The position numbers and the translations under genes were made by a program. This document shows positions 47,774 through 56,268 of a stretch of DNA of 64,000 nucleotides, one piece after another; the stretch's first letter is position 1; each line of letters begins with the position of its first letter. The notes beneath the pieces were generated by a model. That model worked only from the letters and a program-made list of their open reading frames with translations, was not told the DNA's origin and ran no database searches. Origin of the DNA: Acidimicrobiaceae bacterium (GTDB lineage Bacteria; Actinomycetota; Acidimicrobiia; Acidimicrobiales; Aldehydirespiratoraceae); assembly GCA_009837445.1 (NCBI GenBank), contig VXTM01000021.1, positions 1 to 64,000 of the forward strand. The letters are read 5' to 3'.

Positions 47774-48991
47774 ATGGCAGCCCAGATCTCTCCAGACAGC
47801 GTGTGGGTCCTCGGCGCCCACATGACCCGCTTCGCCCGCTACGCGGACCGCGACCTGATCGACCTTGCCTCCGAGAGCGCCATGGCCGCGCTGGCCGACG
47901 GCGAAGTCACGGTGGGCGACATCGACATCCTGGCGTGCGGGTCACTGTTCCAGGCCACCGGGGCGGTGGGCCAGCGCATCCAGAAGCAGATCGGCCAGAC
48001 CGGCGTGCCGGTCTACAACATCTCCAACGCCTGTGCCACCGGGGCCACCGCAATCCGAACGGTGATCATGGCCATCAAGGCGGGCGAGGCCCAGATCGGG
48101 CTGGCGGTCGGAGCCGAGCAGATGGGCAAGATGGGCCTGCTGGGCGGCGGCGCCACCAAGAAGGAGAAGAAGGTCTTCGAACCGTCCGGGCGCTACGGCG
48201 CGGTGACCGGTGTGGACGGTCATCTGGGCACCGAGACCATGCCGGGAGTGTTCGCCCAGGCCGGCATGGCCTACGCCCACAACCACGACGGGGTTGGCTT
48301 CGAGCAGTTCGCCCGGGTCGCCTACAAGAACCACCTGCACTCGACGTTGAACCCGCTGGCCCAGTACCAGAAGGAGTTCTCCATGGACGAGATCCTGGAG
48401 TCGCCGATGATGAGCTACCCCAACACGCTGCTGATGTGCTGCCCGACCGGCGACGGCGCCGCCGCGGTGGTGCTGGTGTCGGGGGAGCGTCTGGCGTCGA
48501 TGCCGGCCCACGTCCGCAAGCGGGCGGTGAAGGTGTCGGCGTCGGTGCTGACATCGGACCCCTTCACCGAGGACTGCCAGGTGCAGCCGGACGTCAACAC
48601 CCTCACCCGCAACGCGGCCGACCAGGCCTACGAGGCGGCCGGTGTGGGTCCCGCCGATCTCGACCTGGTGGAGCTGCACGACTGCTTCGCCACCGCCGAG
48701 CTGATCCACTACGACAACCTCGGGCTGTGCGAGCCGGGCGGCGCCGGGGACTTCATCGACTCGGGCGGCCCGTTCCGCGACGGCACCACGCCGGTGAACG
48801 TCTCCGGCGGGCTGATCTCCAAGGGCCACCCCATCGGGGCCACCGGCGTGGCCAACGTCTACGAGATCACCACGCACCTGAGGGGCGAGGCCGGCGACCG
48901 CCAGGTTGAGGGGGCCACCGTCGGCCTGGCCCACGTCATCGGCCTGGCCTCAGCCTGCGGGGTCCACATCCTCGAGAAGGCCGCCGCCTGA
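47774..48991 (+). CDS. Thiolase-like protein (SCP-x/acetyl-CoA acetyltransferase family)
   Basis: A 405-residue thiolase fold protein. The catalytic Cys is in YNISNACATGATAI, and the His motif is KGHPIGATGVAN. GGLISKGHPIG and ELHDCFATAELI are typical of the SCP-x-like branch used in steroid, fatty acid or other acyl-CoA metabolism. It is paired with the Zn-ribbon/OB protein upstream. A good ribosome-binding site (GGGAGG) precedes the ATG. Substrate and direction of reaction are unknown. Confidence 0.9.
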   Translation: MAAQISPDSVWVLGAHMTRFARYADRDLIDLASESAMAALADGEVTVGDIDILACGSLFQATGAVGQRIQKQIGQTGVPVYNISNACATGATAIRTVIMAIKAGEAQIGLAVGAEQMGKMGLLGGGATKKEKKVFEPSGRYGAVTGVDGHLGTETMPGVFAQAGMAYAHNHDGVGFEQFARVAYKNHLHSTLNPLAQYQKEFSMDEILESPMMSYPNTLLMCCPTGDGAAAVVLVSGERLASMPAHVRKRAVKVSASVLTSDPFTEDCQVQPDVNTLTRNAADQAYEAAGVGPADLDLVELHDCFATAELIHYDNLGLCEPGGAGDFIDSGGPFRDGTTPVNVSGGLISKGHPIGATGVANVYEITTHLRGEAGDRQVEGATVGLAHVIGLASACGVHILEKAAA

Positions 48992-49162
48992 ACCGCCAAG
49001 CATCCCACCCGGAGCGAGCCCCTATTTGACGTGGATGGCCACGGCAGCCGACAAGAGCTGACGAGCGCGGTCGCTGCGCCCGTCACCGACCGCACTACCG
49101 AGCGTCCACTCCGGACAACGCAAGATCCCGTAGCTCGCGCCGTTGCGGTTCAGCGCCTCGAC

Positions 49163-52100
49163 ATGAGGCTCTCACGGTGCTGCTCGATCGACCTTGAGGT
49201 CTCGCCGTCCACAGATGAGATCCATGCGCTCGCGGGCGTGCGCAACGACACAGAGGCGACCTACCACTCGTCACAGACGGGACCGAACCTGCGTACACAC
49301 CTGCGGGCCCTCGACGCCCTGGCCGAGGGGGCCGACTTCCTAATTGGACACAATGTCATCAAATTCGATCTGCCGTACCTGCGCGCCGCGCAGCCCGACC
49401 TGCGTCTGCTCAAGCTGCCGGTCATCGACACGTTGTGGCTGAACCCCCTCGCGTTCCCCCGATTCCCCTATCACCACTTGGTGAAGCACTACCGGGAAGG
49501 GGACCTCAGGCGCCACACTCGAAACGACCCCGAACTGGACGCCCGCCTCGCCCTCAAGGCGTTTCAGAACCAGCAGGAGGCGCTGCTCGACGCGGAACCG
49601 AGTCTGGTAGCCGCATGGCACTGGCTGTGCACCGGTCCGGACCACCCGGGCTTCGACATGTTCTTCGAGGCGCTGCGCCGCTCGCCGAGACCCTCTGAGG
49701 CGGAGGGGCGCAGGGCCGTCGGGGAGCGCCTCGACGGTGTCGCCTGCGCCACACAGGCACGCAGCGTCATCGCGTCAGACACTGAGCACGGCTGGTCGCT
49801 GGCGTACGCTCTGGCGTGGCTGTCGGTGTGTGGCGGCAACTCGGTGATGCCGCCGTGGGTCCGCCACCAGTTCCCGGAGGCCGGGAAGTTGGTCCGGCGC
49901 CTGCGCGACACCGCCTGCGCTGATCCAGCTTGCAGTTGGTGTAGAAGCCGCCACGACGCCCGCAGTGAACTCAAGCGCTTCTTCGAATTCGACGGCTACC
50001 GGTCCGAACCCTCCGACAAGCACGGACGTCCGCTGCAACAGGCCATCGTTGAGGCCGCCATGGGCGGCGAGCATGTGCTTGGCATCCTTCCCACCGGCAC
50101 TGGCAAGTCGATCTGCTACCAGGTGCCGGCGCTGTCCCGATACGACAAGACCGGAGCGCTGACCGTGGTGATCTCACCGCTGGTTGCGCTCATGGCCGAT
50201 CAGGTCGCCGGGCTCGAAGCCAAGGGGATCACGTCTTGCGTCGCGATCAGCGGCATGCTCACGATGCCCGAGCGCGCTGATGCCCTCAAGCGGCTCAGGC
50301 TCGGCGATGCCGCCATCGTTCTGTGCTCCCCGGAACAACTCCGCAGCGTGTCGCTGCGCCGTGCGCTCGACCAGCGCGAGATCGGTGCCTGGGTGCTTGA
50401 CGAGGCCCACTGCCTCTCGAAGTGGGGCCATGACTTCCGGCCCGACTACCGGTATGTGGGCCGCTTCATCCGCGAGAGGGCCCAGGAAGGCGTGATACCG
50501 CCTGTCCTTTGCCTAACCGCCACCGCAAAGCCGGATGTCCGGTCCGAGATCGTCGACTACTTCCGCGAGCAGCTCAATGTCGAGATGCGGGTGTTCGACG
50601 GCGGCAGCAAGCGGACGAACCTCGAGTTCGAGGTGGTGCCGACGAGCGAGGCAGTCAAGCTCCACGACATCCACCTGATCCTGGAGCAGCACCTGTCACC
50701 CGATACTGAGGGTGGGGCGATCGTCTACTGCGCGACGCGGCGTCACACAGAGGTGGTGGCGGGCTTCCTCGCTGAGAAGGGTATGAGAGCGGACCGCTTC
50801 CACGCCGGCCTCCAGCCCGAGGACAAGCAGGACATCCAGCGGAGCTTCATCCATGGCGAGTTGCAGGTGATTGCGGCCACCAACGCCTTCGGGATGGGCA
50901 TCGACAAACCCGACGTGCGGCTTGTGGTCCACGCCGACATTCCGTCGTCACTGGAGAACTACCTGCAGGAGGCCGGACGCGCCGGACGGGACCAGCAGAG
51001 TGCTCGCTGCGTGCTGCTCTACAGCAAGGATGACGTCGACCGCCAGTTCAGCATGTCGGCGCGCTCGCGGCTTACGCGCCGGGAGATTCACAGCGTTCTG
51101 CGGGCGCTGCGCCGTCTCAGCCGACGGAACAGGGGTGGCGATGACGAGTTGGTGGCCAGCGTCGGCGAGATCCTCGCCGAAGACGAGAAACATGAGTTCC
51201 GGCGGGATTCCATCACCGACGACACCCGCGCCCGCACCGCTGTGATGTGGCTCGAGGATGCGCAGTTGTTGAGACGCGACGAGAACAGGGTCAGGGTCTT
51301 CGCATCGTCGCTGCGGGTCCGGTCCGTCGCCGAGGCCCGCCAGAGGCTCCACAGCGCGCCAATCACAGACTCAGAGACCCGGTTCCTCATCAGGATCGTC
51401 GAGACGCTCATCGAGTCCGACCCCGATGCCGGAGTCTCCACCGATCAGCTGATGAGCGTGACGGGCTTGGACAGCCCCGGCGTCAGGAGGGCGCTGTGGC
51501 GGCTGGAACAGTTCGGGATCGCCAGCGACGACACCGCTATCACCGCCTTCGTACATCACGGCGTACCGAACTCGTCGCGAAAGCGGCTCGACCAAGCCTC
51601 GGCAGTCGAGCGCGACCTGCTGGACTGGATGCAAGAGCTGGCACCCGATCTCGGCATCGGCGAGAAGGCGCCGCTGGATCTGCGCGTCGCTTCCCAGCGG
51701 CTCCGCGATGCGGGCCACAACGGCGTACGACCAGAACAGGTCATCCGGACCCTGCGGGGAGTCGCTCGCGACGGGCACGACGAGGGCGGAAACTCCGGCA
51801 GCCTGACCCTGCGGACACTCCACGCCGAGGCCGTCTCGGTGACACTCAAACGCGAGTGGAGTCCCCTGCGCCGCCTGGCTGACAAACGCAGAAACGGCGC
51901 TTCGAGGCTGCTGGAGTTGCTGTTGTCCAAACTGAAGCAAGGTCAGCGCGGCAACGACATTCTGGTCAAGTCCACGTTGGGCGAGCTGACGCGAGCGATC
52001 TGCGACGACCTGGATCTCGCCGCCCGAACAACCGATGCCCGCAGGCTCATGGAAGGCGCGCTGCTGTGGCTGCACGAGCAGAACGTCATCAGACTGAACA

Positions 52101-54265
52101 AGGGCCTGACGGTGTTCCGCTCCGCCATGACCATCCGCCTCGCGGCGGAGAGGCGGGGCTTCACGAACCAGGACTTCGAGTCGCTCCAGCTCCACTACGA
52201 GGAATCGACACGGCAGGTCCATGTGATGGCCGAGTACGCCGAGAAAGGGCTGTCGTCCATGGCCGACGCCATCCGGCTGTCACTCGACTACTTCGCTCTC
52301 GGAGAGGAAGAGTTCCTCCGTCGCTGGCTCCCGAACAAGCGCCATGAGATCGCACGCCAGACGACGCCCGAGTCTTGGTTGACGATCGTCGAGTGCCTCA
52401 AGAACCCGGATCAGCGCCAGTTGGTCATTGATGACCGGGAGCAGACCAACGTGCTGGTACTTGCCGGACCCGGCTCCGGCAAGACGCGGGTGCTCGTGCA
52501 TCGCATTGCCTACCTGGTCCGGGTCCGGCGCGAGGACCCGCGCGGGATTCTCGCACTCGCCTACAACCGCCACGCCGCAGTCGAGATCCGCAGCCGGCTC
52601 GCCGATCTGATCGGCGAAGACTCACGCCAGGTCACGGTTCTCACCTGCCACGCGCTAGCGATGCGCCTGGTCGGGGCGAGCTTCTCGGGCGCCGCGGAGA
52701 CACTCCACAAGGAGGACTTCGAGGACCGGCTCGACCGAGTGCTCGGCGAGGCCGCCGAACTGCTGCGGGGCGAGGGGCTGGAGCCGGCGGAGGCCGAGGA
52801 GGTCCGTGAGCGCCTACTGTCAGGGTTCCGCTGGATTCTGGTGGACGAGTACCAGGACGTAGATGGCAAGCAGTACGACCTGATCTCCGCTCTGGCCGGG
52901 CGGACGCTATCCGAGCCCGATGCGCGGCTGTCGCTCTTTGCGGTCGGCGACGACGACCAAAACATCTACTCGTTCAGTGGTGCATCGGTGGAGTACATCC
53001 GGCGCTTCGAAGCGGACTACAAGGCCAAGCCCGCATACCTGTTGGACAACTACCGGTCCACCCGCCACATCATCGACGCCTCGAACGCCGTCATCGAAGA
53101 GGCGCACGAGCGGATGAAGGTCAACCACCCCATCCGCGTCGACCGGGCGCGGGCTCAAGCACCCGCCGGCGGCGAGTGGGCCGACCTTGATCCGGTCGGC
53201 CGCGGCCGGGTGCAGGTCCTTCAGCCCGGAAGCGGGCTGATCCGTCAGACGCAGGCCGCGCTCGCCGAGCTGAAGCGATTGTCGGGCCTCAATGCCCGGT
53301 GGAACTGGTCGAAGTGCGCGGTGATCGCCCGCGGCTGGAAGTACCTGGAGCCGATTCGCGGCTTGTGCGACCTCGAAGGGATCCCCTGGCAGCTGGCGAG
53401 GGACGACCATTTGAGTGTCTGGCAGCTGCGCGAGACCCAGTCCTTGGTGGGCTGGCTTCGATCCCGCCAGTCAGCCATCTTGCGGAACTCGGAAGCGCGC
53501 GATTGGCTGCACCGGCAGGCGGAGGGGCGTTGGATCGATCTGCTGAAGCAGGCGGTGCAGGAGCATGACCAGGAGGCCGGCGACGCCGAGACACCCGTCG
53601 ACTCGTTCGTCGAGTGGCTCGCCGAGTGGAGCCGCGACGCTCGCCGGCGCCAACACGGCCTGTTGCTTACCAGCGCGCACAAGGCCAAGGGTCGCGAGTT
53701 CGACCACGCCGTCGTCCTCGACGGAGGTTGGGAACGCACCGGAACGGACGAGGATCCCGATGCGTCAAGGCGCCTCTACTACGTCGCCATGACTCGGGCA
53801 CGCCTGACCCTGACCCTGACCAGCATGGGATCGCTCAATCCCTACATCGAGCGGCTACTGGGCCATCGGTCGGTGCTTCGGCGCGAACCGGCCGCGCTCC
53901 CCGAGCCGCCAGCAGCGGCGCGCCAGACCTGTCTCAGGCTCGGTCTTGGCGACGTCTTCATCAGCTTCGCTGGCTACAGGTCTCGGGGTCGGGTCCACCG
54001 AGCTATCGCCGGCCTTACACCGGGCGACGACTTGGGTCTGGACGACAGCGAGAAGCCGTGGCGCCTGCTTGACCAGAGGGGCGTCGCAGTGGGTCGCCTC
54101 GCAAGCGGATTTACACCCCCGGAGGGCATGCGCTGTGTCAAGGCGACCGTGTATGCCGTAGTGACCCGCCGCCGCGAGCAGTCGGCACCCGAGTATCAGG
54201 AGCGCCTCAAGTGCGACCGCTGGGAGGTTGTGCTGCCCGAACTGATCTTCGAGCCCGCATCGTAG
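49163..54265 (+). CDS. DEDD exonuclease - RecQ helicase - UvrD-type helicase fusion
   Basis: A single open frame of about 1700 residues joining three nucleic-acid enzymes. Residues 1-~170: DEDD exonuclease with Asp10/Glu12 (SIDLE), Asp69 (GHNVIKFDLPYL) and Asp126 (NDPELDARLA). The general-base position holds Asn121 instead of His. Residue 252 starts a Cys cluster (CADPACSWC). Residues ~290-650: RecQ-type SF2 helicase with Lys315 (PTGTGKSICYQ), Asp413 (DEAHCLSKWGHDFRPDY), LTATA, and QEAGRAGRDQ from 602. Residues ~650-1090: no recognised domain. Residues ~1095-1560: UvrD/Rep-type SF1 helicase with Lys1107 (AGPGSGKT), Asp1228 (VDEYQD), GDDDQNIYSFSGA, SAHKAKGREFDHAV and Arg1545 (YYVAMTRAR). Likely a repair, recombination or anti-foreign-DNA machine. 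ATG 49163 is chosen just before the exonuclease motif; GTG 49031 would add 44 unlike residues. GC bias at third positions looks weaker than in neighbours. Confidence 0.9.
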   Translation: MRLSRCCSIDLEVSPSTDEIHALAGVRNDTEATYHSSQTGPNLRTHLRALDALAEGADFLIGHNVIKFDLPYLRAAQPDLRLLKLPVIDTLWLNPLAFPRFPYHHLVKHYREGDLRRHTRNDPELDARLALKAFQNQQEALLDAEPSLVAAWHWLCTGPDHPGFDMFFEALRRSPRPSEAEGRRAVGERLDGVACATQARSVIASDTEHGWSLAYALAWLSVCGGNSVMPPWVRHQFPEAGKLVRRLRDTACADPACSWCRSRHDARSELKRFFEFDGYRSEPSDKHGRPLQQAIVEAAMGGEHVLGILPTGTGKSICYQVPALSRYDKTGALTVVISPLVALMADQVAGLEAKGITSCVAISGMLTMPERADALKRLRLGDAAIVLCSPEQLRSVSLRRALDQREIGAWVLDEAHCLSKWGHDFRPDYRYVGRFIRERAQEGVIPPVLCLTATAKPDVRSEIVDYFREQLNVEMRVFDGGSKRTNLEFEVVPTSEAVKLHDIHLILEQHLSPDTEGGAIVYCATRRHTEVVAGFLAEKGMRADRFHAGLQPEDKQDIQRSFIHGELQVIAATNAFGMGIDKPDVRLVVHADIPSSLENYLQEAGRAGRDQQSARCVLLYSKDDVDRQFSMSARSRLTRREIHSVLRALRRLSRRNRGGDDELVASVGEILAEDEKHEFRRDSITDDTRARTAVMWLEDAQLLRRDENRVRVFASSLRVRSVAEARQRLHSAPITDSETRFLIRIVETLIESDPDAGVSTDQLMSVTGLDSPGVRRALWRLEQFGIASDDTAITAFVHHGVPNSSRKRLDQASAVERDLLDWMQELAPDLGIGEKAPLDLRVASQRLRDAGHNGVRPEQVIRTLRGVARDGHDEGGNSGSLTLRTLHAEAVSVTLKREWSPLRRLADKRRNGASRLLELLLSKLKQGQRGNDILVKSTLGELTRAICDDLDLAARTTDARRLMEGALLWLHEQNVIRLNKGLTVFRSAMTIRLAAERRGFTNQDFESLQLHYEESTRQVHVMAEYAEKGLSSMADAIRLSLDYFALGEEEFLRRWLPNKRHEIARQTTPESWLTIVECLKNPDQRQLVIDDREQTNVLVLAGPGSGKTRVLVHRIAYLVRVRREDPRGILALAYNRHAAVEIRSRLADLIGEDSRQVTVLTCHALAMRLVGASFSGAAETLHKEDFEDRLDRVLGEAAELLRGEGLEPAEAEEVRERLLSGFRWILVDEYQDVDGKQYDLISALAGRTLSEPDARLSLFAVGDDDQNIYSFSGASVEYIRRFEADYKAKPAYLLDNYRSTRHIIDASNAVIEEAHERMKVNHPIRVDRARAQAPAGGEWADLDPVGRGRVQVLQPGSGLIRQTQAALAELKRLSGLNARWNWSKCAVIARGWKYLEPIRGLCDLEGIPWQLARDDHLSVWQLRETQSLVGWLRSRQSAILRNSEARDWLHRQAEGRWIDLLKQAVQEHDQEAGDAETPVDSFVEWLAEWSRDARRRQHGLLLTSAHKAKGREFDHAVVLDGGWERTGTDEDPDASRRLYYVAMTRARLTLTLTSMGSLNPYIERLLGHRSVLRREPAALPEPPAAARQTCLRLGLGDVFISFAGYRSRGRVHRAIAGLTPGDDLGLDDSEKPWRLLDQRGVAVGRLASGFTPPEGMRCVKATVYAVVTRRREQSAPEYQERLKCDRWEVVLPELIFEPAS

Positions 54266-54351: not shown

Positions 54352-54717
54352 ATGACCGTCGTTGGGATCGACCATGTTCAGCTGGCGATGCCCGAGGGTG
54401 GCGAGGCGTCCGCGCAGGAGTTCTACGAGGGTCTACTCGGCCTCACACGGGTGCCAAAGCCTCCCCATCTGGAGCGGCGAGGTGGCTGCTGGTTCGAGAA
54501 TGACTGCGTCAAGGTCCACCTCGGCGTGGATGCCGACTTTCGGCCGGCCCGCAAGGCCCATCCCGCCCTCGTAGTGGACGGCTTGGATCGCCTGGTTGAG
54601 CGTCTGCGGGCGGCCGGTGTCGCGGTCCGCGATGACGAGGCGCTGGAGACACATCGCAGGGCGTATGCCGATGATCCGTTCGGCAATCGCATCGAGTTGC
54701 TCGAGTCCGTCGAATAG
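54352..54717 (+). CDS. VOC (glyoxalase/dioxygenase) family protein
   Basis: A 121-residue single-domain metalloenzyme-type protein. The first half begins VVGIDHVQLAMPEGGEASAQEFYEGLLGL with a metal-ligand His, and the second ends RAYADDPFGNRIELLE with the usual Glu. Glyoxalase, dioxygenase and resistance proteins share this fold; the substrate is unknown. TAGGAT (54340-54345) lies 6 bases before the ATG, fitting a leaderless transcript separate from the helicase gene. Confidence 0.88.
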   Translation: MTVVGIDHVQLAMPEGGEASAQEFYEGLLGLTRVPKPPHLERRGGCWFENDCVKVHLGVDADFRPARKAHPALVVDGLDRLVERLRAAGVAVRDDEALETHRRAYADDPFGNRIELLESVE

Positions 54718-54795: not shown

Positions 54796-54852
54796 TTGAG
54801 AAATCCATGAAAATGGGGGATAGATGTCATACCCCCATGGGATGCTGTGTTC
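54796..54852 (+). promoter_or_regulatory. Promoter-like upstream element of the right DUF222 gene
   Basis: AT-rich patch with TTGAGA (54796-54801), TGAAAA, and ATAGAT (54820-54825) exactly 27 bases before ATG 54853. The left DUF222 gene has the same ATAGAT at the same 27-base distance, and 19 of the 27 intervening bases agree by eye. Both also share GTG-NNN-ATG at the start. Confidence 0.5.
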
Positions 54853-56268
54853 ATGTTGATCGAAGCCGCTCGACGGGCCGAAGCCGCGGTGAAGGAGATG
54901 CTGTCCTTCGCCCACGACGGATCCGCCACGACTGACGAGTTTCGCGACGCCCTGGAGATCACGGAATCCTTCGTGAGGATCGCCTCGGCCTTCCAAACCT
55001 CGGCCGCGGCCGCGGTGGCCGGGCGCGAGCAGCACGGCGACGGGGGTGCGGAGGTACTGGCCACCAGCACCGGCCTTTCGCGGCCGGAGGCTCACAGCCG
55101 CGTCAAGACGGCTGAGGCGTTGCGGGACGTTCCGGCAGCGCGCCAGGCGGTCGAATCGGGGCGGGTGTCGCCGGCCAACGCCAGGCGTCTTGCGGATGCG
55201 ATCGACAAGGCGGGCGCGAAGGCCGTCGGCGACGACGGCGGTCTGCTGGCCAACGCCGAGTCAATGCGGCCTGAGCAGTTCAGCCGCGAGGCCCGGCGTT
55301 GGGTGGTCACTCGCGAGGACGACGGCGGGGAGTCCGAGCATCGGCGCCAGAGAGCGCGGCGCCATGTGCGCCTCCGAAACGCAGACGACGGCATGGTCCA
55401 CCTCTACGGCGAGTTCGACGCCGCGACAGGTCAGCGAATCGGCAACCGGCTTCGGGCGGAGGCCAGCCGCATGCACGAGGCCGACAAGAGGGCGGCGGCA
55501 GGCTCGGGCTCCGATCGCCAAACGTTCGCCCAGTGCATGGCCGACGCCCTCGACAACCTCACCGCCGGCAACGCAGCGAGTGACGGCAAGGGCAAGCCCA
55601 TCGCTGACATCTGCGTAGTCGCGCACGTCGACAACGAGACCGGCAACCTCATCGCCGAGCTACCCGACGGCGACAGGCTGCCCCCGGCGGTGCTCGAGGA
55701 GTTCGCCTGCAACGCCAAGTTCACGGGGGTCGTCTATGACCGCAAGGGCAAGCCGATCTGGCGGGCCGAGTCCTGCCGCACCGCCACCGAAGCACAGCGG
55801 CAGATCCTTCTCGCCCGTTACGGAGGCTGCTTTCATTGCGCGGCCCACCCCGCGCTGTGCCAGGTCCACCACATCAGACCGGTATCGCAGGGCGGGTCCA
55901 CAAAGATCTCCAACATGGTCCCGGTCTGCTGGCACTGCCACCAGAGGATCCACCACCACAAGTGGCAGATTCGCACGACCAACGGCGTGCATACCCTGCA
56001 CCCGCCCGGCCGAGTCCACTGCGGACCCGCCCACGCCCCCGACGAACCCGTCTTGCACCTGCCCGGCATCACCCCAGACGCTGTGCAGCCTCGGCCCGAA
56101 GCCACCGATGACGCTCCCGAGTCGCAGGAACGGCATCCGCCCCGCATCGCCCATGCCCCTGACCCGCCGCCTGAGCCTCTCGGTTCCTGGCCCGAACCAT
56201 GCGGCGCCCGGGCTGGTCCCGCGGCGGCCCGGGCCGCTCTCCGGGATGCCAGGGTCGGGAGCGGCTGA
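54853..56268 (+). CDS. DUF222/HNH endonuclease family protein (13E12-type)
   Basis: A 471-residue protein. The DUF222 region (about residues 1-290) includes GLSRPEAHSRVKTAEAL, RPEQFSREARRW and DDGMVHLYGEFD. The C-terminal HNH domain has CFHCAAHPALCQVHHIRPVSQGG and NMVPVCWHCHQRIHHHKW, with catalytic HH and zinc-binding Cys pairs. A Pro/Asp-rich tail ends the protein. It is complete, unlike its paralogue at the left edge. ATG 54853 is preferred over GTG 54847 by comparison with that gene. Role unproven; nuclease activity is inferred from the HNH motif. Confidence 0.92.
   Translation: MLIEAARRAEAAVKEMLSFAHDGSATTDEFRDALEITESFVRIASAFQTSAAAAVAGREQHGDGGAEVLATSTGLSRPEAHSRVKTAEALRDVPAARQAVESGRVSPANARRLADAIDKAGAKAVGDDGGLLANAESMRPEQFSREARRWVVTREDDGGESEHRRQRARRHVRLRNADDGMVHLYGEFDAATGQRIGNRLRAEASRMHEADKRAAAGSGSDRQTFAQCMADALDNLTAGNAASDGKGKPIADICVVAHVDNETGNLIAELPDGDRLPPAVLEEFACNAKFTGVVYDRKGKPIWRAESCRTATEAQRQILLARYGGCFHCAAHPALCQVHHIRPVSQGGSTKISNMVPVCWHCHQRIHHHKWQIRTTNGVHTLHPPGRVHCGPAHAPDEPVLHLPGITPDAVQPRPEATDDAPESQERHPPRIAHAPDPPPEPLGSWPEPCGARAGPAAARAALRDARVGSG

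Follow-up and report, generated by a model that had tools for sequence, protein, structure and literature searches.

One stop-free reading frame in the window (the whole 64,000-nucleotide stretch of DNA analyzed here) encodes a protein in which a DEDD-type exonuclease, a RecQ-type helicase, and a UvrD-type helicase are fused; its three active sites are conserved, its presence among related genomes is patchy, and its gene is mobile. The explanation that we favor, and to which we give about half of our belief, is that this protein is a mobile, stand-alone nuclease that degrades the 3' strands of foreign or aberrant DNA. The frame begins either at an ATG at position 49163 (1700 aa) or at a GTG 44 codons upstream of it, at position 49031 (1744 aa), and its stop codon lies at 54263-54265. 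From the N terminus, the order of the parts is exonuclease, Cys/His cluster, RecQ core, long middle region, UvrD core, and tail:

49163..54265, + strand: whole ORF, 1700 aa from the ATG start; full-length homologs are a single ORF in 62/80 loci
49163..49702, + strand: DEDD-type 3'-5' exonuclease domain, residues 1-180, with D10, E12, D69, and D126 and a predicted fold
49703..50026, + strand: helical linker and Cys/His cluster, residues 181-288, with C195, C252, C257, C260, and H264
50027..51022, + strand: RecQ-type SF2 helicase core, residues 289-620, with K315, DEAH at 413-416, and QEAGRAGRD at 602-610
51023..52402, + strand: middle region, residues 621-1080, conserved within the family, with a weak winged-helix resemblance
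52403..53830, + strand: UvrD/Rep-type SF1 helicase core, residues 1081-1556, with K1107, D1228-E1229, R1298, E1488, and R1545
53831..54262, + strand: C-terminal tail, residues 1557-1700, with the invariant W1687

The first-pass annotation had described one frame of about 1700 codons joining the three enzymes, and had named a sequencing frameshift or an assembly join as an origin of the fusion that would undo its reading. The frame itself was confirmed by its lack of internal stops, by Pfam and NCBIfam matches, and by homologs: in 62 of the 80 homologous loci the same domain order is kept as one ORF (spanning model positions ≤6 to ≥1688), and the remaining 18 comprise contig-end cuts, splits, and genes that were not called. 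The same fusion is also found in plasmid records given as complete. A tblastn search with the whole protein matched 220 plasmid records, 24 of which cover at least 80% of the protein, at up to 57.8% identity over its length. Finally, the fusion is present twice in its own genome (G000). We therefore rejected an assembly join or frameshift, whose probability we consider negligible.

Conservation was judged on 63 sequences, i.e., the 62 single-ORF homologs and the window protein (56 of these are included in alignment A6 and 55 in A7). With the exception of Q1266, which is present in 62/63, the catalytic residues checked in all three enzymes are identical in every sequence. They include each residue quoted previously, namely D10, E12, D69, and D126 of the exonuclease, K315 and D413 of the RecQ core, and K1107, D1228, and R1545 of the UvrD core, as well as R606 and R609 in the former helicase and E1229 and R1298 in the latter. 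The Cys cluster noted earlier is likewise present; it reads C252-x4-C257-x2-C260-x3-H264 plus C195, is invariant in 55/55 rows of A7, and is a probable metal site. Taken together, the architecture and the invariant active sites lend good support to the reading of the protein as a fused helicase-nuclease.

The N-terminal domain is placed among the DEDD exonucleases by its four acidic residues, which fall in three motifs, and by a match to an RNase-H-like fold; its Pfam matches by sequence stay below the cut-off. The predicted structure is confident (pLDDT 86.7, pTM 0.82), with residues 99-115 under 50. For residues 1-290, the sole solved structure at E ≤0.001 is that of Staphylococcus aureus DinG (9ii8 / 8zef; E 3.6e-4, probability 1.00, TM-score 0.38 over the query). 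It is followed, at E 0.004-0.011, by T7 polymerase, the TREX1-like Plex9.1, and DnaQ; their TM-scores are near 0.3 when computed over the query and, in the case of Plex9.1 and DnaQ, near 0.5 over the target. DinG is also the best profile match when A7 is used (E 0.021), and with A1 (E 0.00028) it stands just behind 9mrc/9mrd, the TREX1 homolog Plex9.1. The two proteins differ, however, in the helicase that follows the exonuclease, which in the fusion is of the RecQ rather than the XPD/DinG type, and in the DEDDh His of DinG, which the fusion replaces with Asn. This residue, Asn121, aligns with the DinG His in the profile alignment and occupies the position, five before the last Asp, at which His is expected (Asn in 62/63 sequences, Ser in 1). 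The domain thus falls outside the DEDDh subclass, and its catalysis may therefore differ.

Both helicase cores could be assigned to families. The SF2 part matches the Pfam families DEAD (289-459) and Helicase_C (507-610) and, at 301.7 bits, exceeds the curated cut-off (219.8) of the NCBIfam model recQ_fam (TIGR00614), a likeness that it shares with WRN, BLM, and Escherichia coli RecQ. It scores well below the canonical RecQ equivalog TIGR01389 (335.3 vs 640.2 bits) and differs from the RecQ family in having no match to the RecQ zinc-binding (PF16124) or HRDC domain, either across the full-length protein (at E ≤0.001) or in residues 612-1085 (at E ≤10), and in adding an SF1 motor and a long middle. 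The SF1 part belongs to the UvrD/Rep (SF1A) helicases, with PF00580 from residue 1081 (140.7 bits, cut-off 23) and UvrD_C at 1499-1554 (34.6 bits, cut-off 25.6), and its PDB sequence matches are UvrD, PcrA, and Rep; it differs from those helicases in sitting behind an exonuclease and a RecQ core and in carrying a C-terminal tail of its own. We considered HIRAN as an identity for the tail and rejected it, as the tail has no Pfam match above cut-off and no significant PDB-sequence match. The middle region, predicted with moderate confidence (pLDDT 73.8, pTM 0.48), has no Foldseek match at E ≤0.001, no Pfam match above cut-off, and no significant PDB-sequence match. Its weak Foldseek matches include ORC/OCCM, Cdt1, and RNA polymerase III entries, which we take to be winged-helix proteins, and the region possibly forms an array of DNA-binding winged helices.

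WRN likewise joins a DEDD-superfamily exonuclease to RecQ. The best PDB sequence matches of the SF2 core are RecQ, BLM, and RecQ1, with human WRN helicase structures further down, and both helicase domains belong to repair families. These resemblances favor an alternative, which we nonetheless regard as rather unlikely, in which the protein is an accessory repair or replication-restart enzyme, a bacterial WRN analog with a UvrD motor that serves the host at stalled forks or broken ends. Its genome also gives this alternative some support: no stand-alone RecQ is present at E ≤1e-30, only the two fusions (the assembly is 93.8% complete). A separate UvrD-like frame of 790 aa is also present in this genome, which fits the favored explanation.

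The distribution of the gene argues against host repair. The exonuclease model matched half of the genus (8/16 genomes, own genome counted) and, in the phylum, 2 of the 396 genomes sampled, one being the own genome and the other a genome of the same family. Matches extending beyond the RecQ core were found in 15 of 100 relatives (own counted; from the place table), divided into 8/16 in the genus, 6/35 elsewhere in the family, and 1/49 elsewhere in the order; some of the matches are fragmented over small contigs. Moreover, at E 1e-30 no RecQ was matched in 4/16 genus genomes (86-95% complete), which suggests a dispensable function. No match to any of four LexA-box patterns was found in the 58 regions upstream of the gene, where fewer than one would be expected by chance; this too counts against the repair alternative, and SOS regulation was rejected.

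The site of the gene could be defined from its flanks, both of which we identify by sequence resemblance only and take to be as follows:

47774..48991, + strand: left flank, thiolase-like gene with conserved synteny in the genus
54352..54717, + strand: right flank, small VOC-like gene, which follows the thiolase in the empty site of G007

The fusion lies directly after the thiolase-like gene in five genomes (the own genome, G001, G006, G012, and G013) and 1.4 kb away from it in G002. In the sister genome G007 the site is empty, with 92 nt, stop codon included, from the thiolase to the VOC-like gene. The thiolase is followed directly by a DUF255-like gene in G010 and G004, by an HNH gene in G009, and by some 6 kb of other sequence in G003; in G008 the fusion is absent after the thiolase and lies on another contig. 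A search for the thiolase-like gene in G011 and G005 gave no match, and the contigs of G014 and G015 end soon after it. The earlier annotation had also allowed that the protein might prove to be a standard housekeeping repair enzyme of this lineage, an identity that we rejected given the patchy distribution of the gene in the genus, the phylum, and the relatives sampled, together with the empty site.

The second copy in the own genome is a paralog (G000:C48; L136 1-6515), 62% identical to the first. Over the gene, the nucleotide sequences of the paralog and the L062 copy are 96.5% identical, and blastn matched the two loci nowhere else; the contig of the paralog extends just 1.2 kb to the left. 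Because these near-identical copies have no flank in common, the fusion gene appears to move alone. Neighbor families are each present in at most 6 of the 80 loci; together with the unshared flanks, this supports the previous description of the protein as self-contained. Single-gene mobility, like the empty site and the plasmid copies, is at odds with a fixed role in host repair.

This mobility does not amount to rampant transfer between phyla, which we rejected. The family tree (FastTree) is clustered mostly by phylum, with 15 label changes against a minimum of 10 and a shuffled mean of 35.4, and at least 7 changes are forced for Pseudomonadota; the phylum labels come from submitters' titles, 15/73 rows are unlabeled, and two plasmid rows have long branches. 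Long residence in lineages is thus common, with some forced transfers, and the clustering by lineage counts against the favored explanation and in favor of the repair alternative. It also weighs against a different explanation, in which the protein is a helper of plasmids or proviruses that processes the element's own DNA or blocks rivals and is transient in its hosts. We consider this improbable. Plasmid copies of the fusion exist, and four contigs from a viral collection (L145-L148) encode relatives of the exonuclease domain, as a helper would predict; on the other side, none of the 25 matching phage records, from a collection of 50,697, covers 80% of the protein, and several species of the genus carry the gene at one conserved chromosomal site.

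Defense-gene neighborhoods were compared with those of dnaE in two PADLOC scans, in which the counts are of matching models rather than of defense genes, and the families named come from the best 25. In the first scan, 17 families were obtained from 95 neighbors of the fusion (17 loci) and 16 from 97 neighbors of dnaE (17 loci), after 3 of 20 locus pairs had been dropped (L036/L106, interrupted; L037/L107, dnaE not called; and L082/L119, gene not called). In the second, 132 families came from 147 fusion neighbors and 71 from 127 control neighbors. This set covered 147 of 227 eligible neighbors (35/55 loci), without proteins shorter than 80 aa and without loci L036, L051, L072, and L082, and its controls lay farther from dnaE, in 19/20 control loci including those dropped in the first scan. 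Fusion neighbors matched OLD/Abi/Gabija-like ATPase models (4/147) and type IIG restriction-modification models (2), and the controls also matched models for Cas1, Cas8b, DpdJ, SoFic, and a BREX-type helicase. Thus, neither scan revealed a clear excess of known defense genes near the fusion over the dnaE neighborhoods, which weakens the defense reading and fits the repair alternative. Among Pfam matches near the fusion, the families listed first are metabolic, with sulfatase at 4/95 (best 25 of 153 families), a further point against defense. Genes in unannotated loci were called with a simple codon-usage caller.

Single contexts of a defense type do occur. The paralog has CRISPR repeats at its contig edge (L136), and in a region 98.7% identical to that of the paralog (L044 66-15223) the fusion gene follows a type I-G-like operon, cas3g-cas8g-cas7g-cas5/6g-cas4/1g-cas2, and a 16-repeat array. 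A script detected CRISPR-like arrays in 1/80 fusion loci and 1/20 controls, having missed the four repeats at the L136 edge; the CRISPR neighborhood of the paralog is therefore not the rule, and a general role as a CRISPR accessory was rejected. Among six plasmid records examined, the one from Thiothrix has cas genes starting 4.3 kb downstream of the fusion. A type I restriction-modification operon lies one gene from it in an Allochromatium plasmid, toxin-antitoxin genes 4-5 kb from it in Cereibacter and Sulfitobacter plasmids, a HipA-type gene 1.3 kb from it in a Rhizobium plasmid, and a NERD-domain gene 2.8 kb from it in a Nostoc plasmid.

The statement that the protein matches no named defense system was borne out. 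Among the best 25 of 86 PADLOC matches, all fall on helicase-core stretches: DpdF, PsyrT, and GajB each cover one helicase core, leaving the exonuclease, middle, and tail unmatched, and the fusion has no recurrent partner gene. Membership in Dpd, PsyrTA, or Gabija was accordingly rejected. Each part of the fusion belongs to a known family, and the three-part combination is new; no description of it was found in the literature searched, which covered few subscription journals. By description, the closest single-protein idea is Hna, a single-gene abortive-infection system that unites SF2 helicase domains with a 3'-5' single-strand exonuclease; the part of its description available to us names no UvrD part (PMC13381803).

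A gene pair brings the same kinds of activity, i.e., exonuclease, RecQ, and UvrD, together in another way. Eight regions had been fetched for other large RecQ frames. In five of these, from genomes G007, G015, G011, G018, and G061, a gene for an exonuclease-DinG-RecQ protein (about 1715-1785 aa) is followed directly by a UvrD-like gene (5/5 such loci); of the other three, one (G019) holds the fusion and two hold other RecQ proteins. The pair occupies the following intervals:

L137, 56-7072: exonuclease-DinG-RecQ gene and UvrD-like gene
L138, 696-7773: the same pair
L139, 731-7843: the same pair, with the exonuclease part in another frame
L141, 2231-9258: the same pair
L142, 2536-9682: the same pair

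In G011 the exonuclease-DinG-RecQ gene is split between two frames, and this genome holds both arrangements, the fusion gene and the two-gene pair. Unlike the fusion, the pair consists of two genes, includes an additional DinG/XPD-type helicase, and has Pfam matches to an exonuclease and to a RecQ zinc-binding domain. In 3/5 loci analyzed with PADLOC, the best model for the UvrD-like gene was 'NERD+UvrD', matching in the UvrD part only, the exonuclease-DinG-RecQ gene was matched by parts alone, and no single model covered the pair. We regard the pair as a candidate two-gene system. Since it joins the same activities by a different route, it supports a functional coupling of exonuclease, RecQ, and UvrD.

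Motors of the RecQ and UvrD families translocate along DNA in the 3'-to-5' direction, and DEDD enzymes degrade DNA from 3' ends. For the mobile nuclease that we favor, we infer the following order of events. The protein would load on DNA that is single-stranded or has a 3' tail; the RecQ and UvrD motors, both 3'-to-5' and separated by the middle region, would unwind the duplex; and the N-terminal exonuclease would remove the 3'-ended strand, such that primers and recombination ends would be destroyed. The Cys/His module perhaps gates the enzyme, sparing host DNA. The most likely use would be genome defense, in which foreign or aberrant replicating DNA (phage or plasmid) is degraded. Patchy presence, mobility, plasmid copies, and the single defense-type contexts favor this use, which is also the least certain step of the scheme. 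More tentatively still, the protein may represent a widespread single-protein immune system, built of an Asn-type exonuclease and two motors, which together with the gene pair would form a class of defense in at least two organizations.

Whichever role it has, the family is large. When species genomes were scanned with the exonuclease alignment, at least 594 stretches matched and at least 563 code for an exonuclease-domain relative; the scan used two patterns, so that one gene may count twice, and the best 80 loci were kept. The fusion is easily overlooked in annotation: among 20 plasmid records listed, 10 call its gene merely a 'RecQ family ATP-dependent DNA helicase', and in 8 no gene is listed at that place. 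As a defense enzyme, it would extend the helicase-nuclease systems by a type in which a single protein carries two motors; as a repair enzyme, it would be a bacterial WRN-like machine carrying an extra motor. Plasmid copies in named strains of Cereibacter (C. sphaeroides), Rhizobium, and Allochromatium (A. vinosum, WP_223295316.1) make both readings testable.

Many of the closest loci come from metagenome-assembled genomes whose names (RHO, COS, CAR, SB06xx, and others) presumably denote sponge metagenomes. In the part of a study of reef demosponges available to us, CRISPR and restriction-modification genes are described as enriched in the sponge symbionts, and sponge-enriched genes as showing evidence of lateral transfer (PMC8163846).

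Comparison of the window gene with its sister in G002 yielded ω values of 0.14-0.16 for all parts except the tail, which at 0.37 is the fastest-evolving part of the protein. Between the same two genes (49163-54262 in the window and L002), dS is 0.28 for the RecQ-middle part, far below the values for the exonuclease (1.06) and UvrD (0.84) parts, which suggests recombination inside the fusion gene. In the viral-collection contigs L145-L148, RecQ-type TGKS and DEAHC motifs occur later in the same frame as the exonuclease-domain relative, and the sequence examined ends inside that frame. The window also carries, at 54847-56268, a gene that we assume to be DUF222/HNH-like, which separates the insertion site from the next conserved gene; the corresponding intervals of G010 and G004 contain no match to it, and this stretch therefore looks variable beyond the fusion gene. 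Lastly, in locus L036 (10001-19071) the second half of the fusion lies about 3.5 kb farther from the exonuclease part than in an intact gene, and this copy is apparently interrupted.
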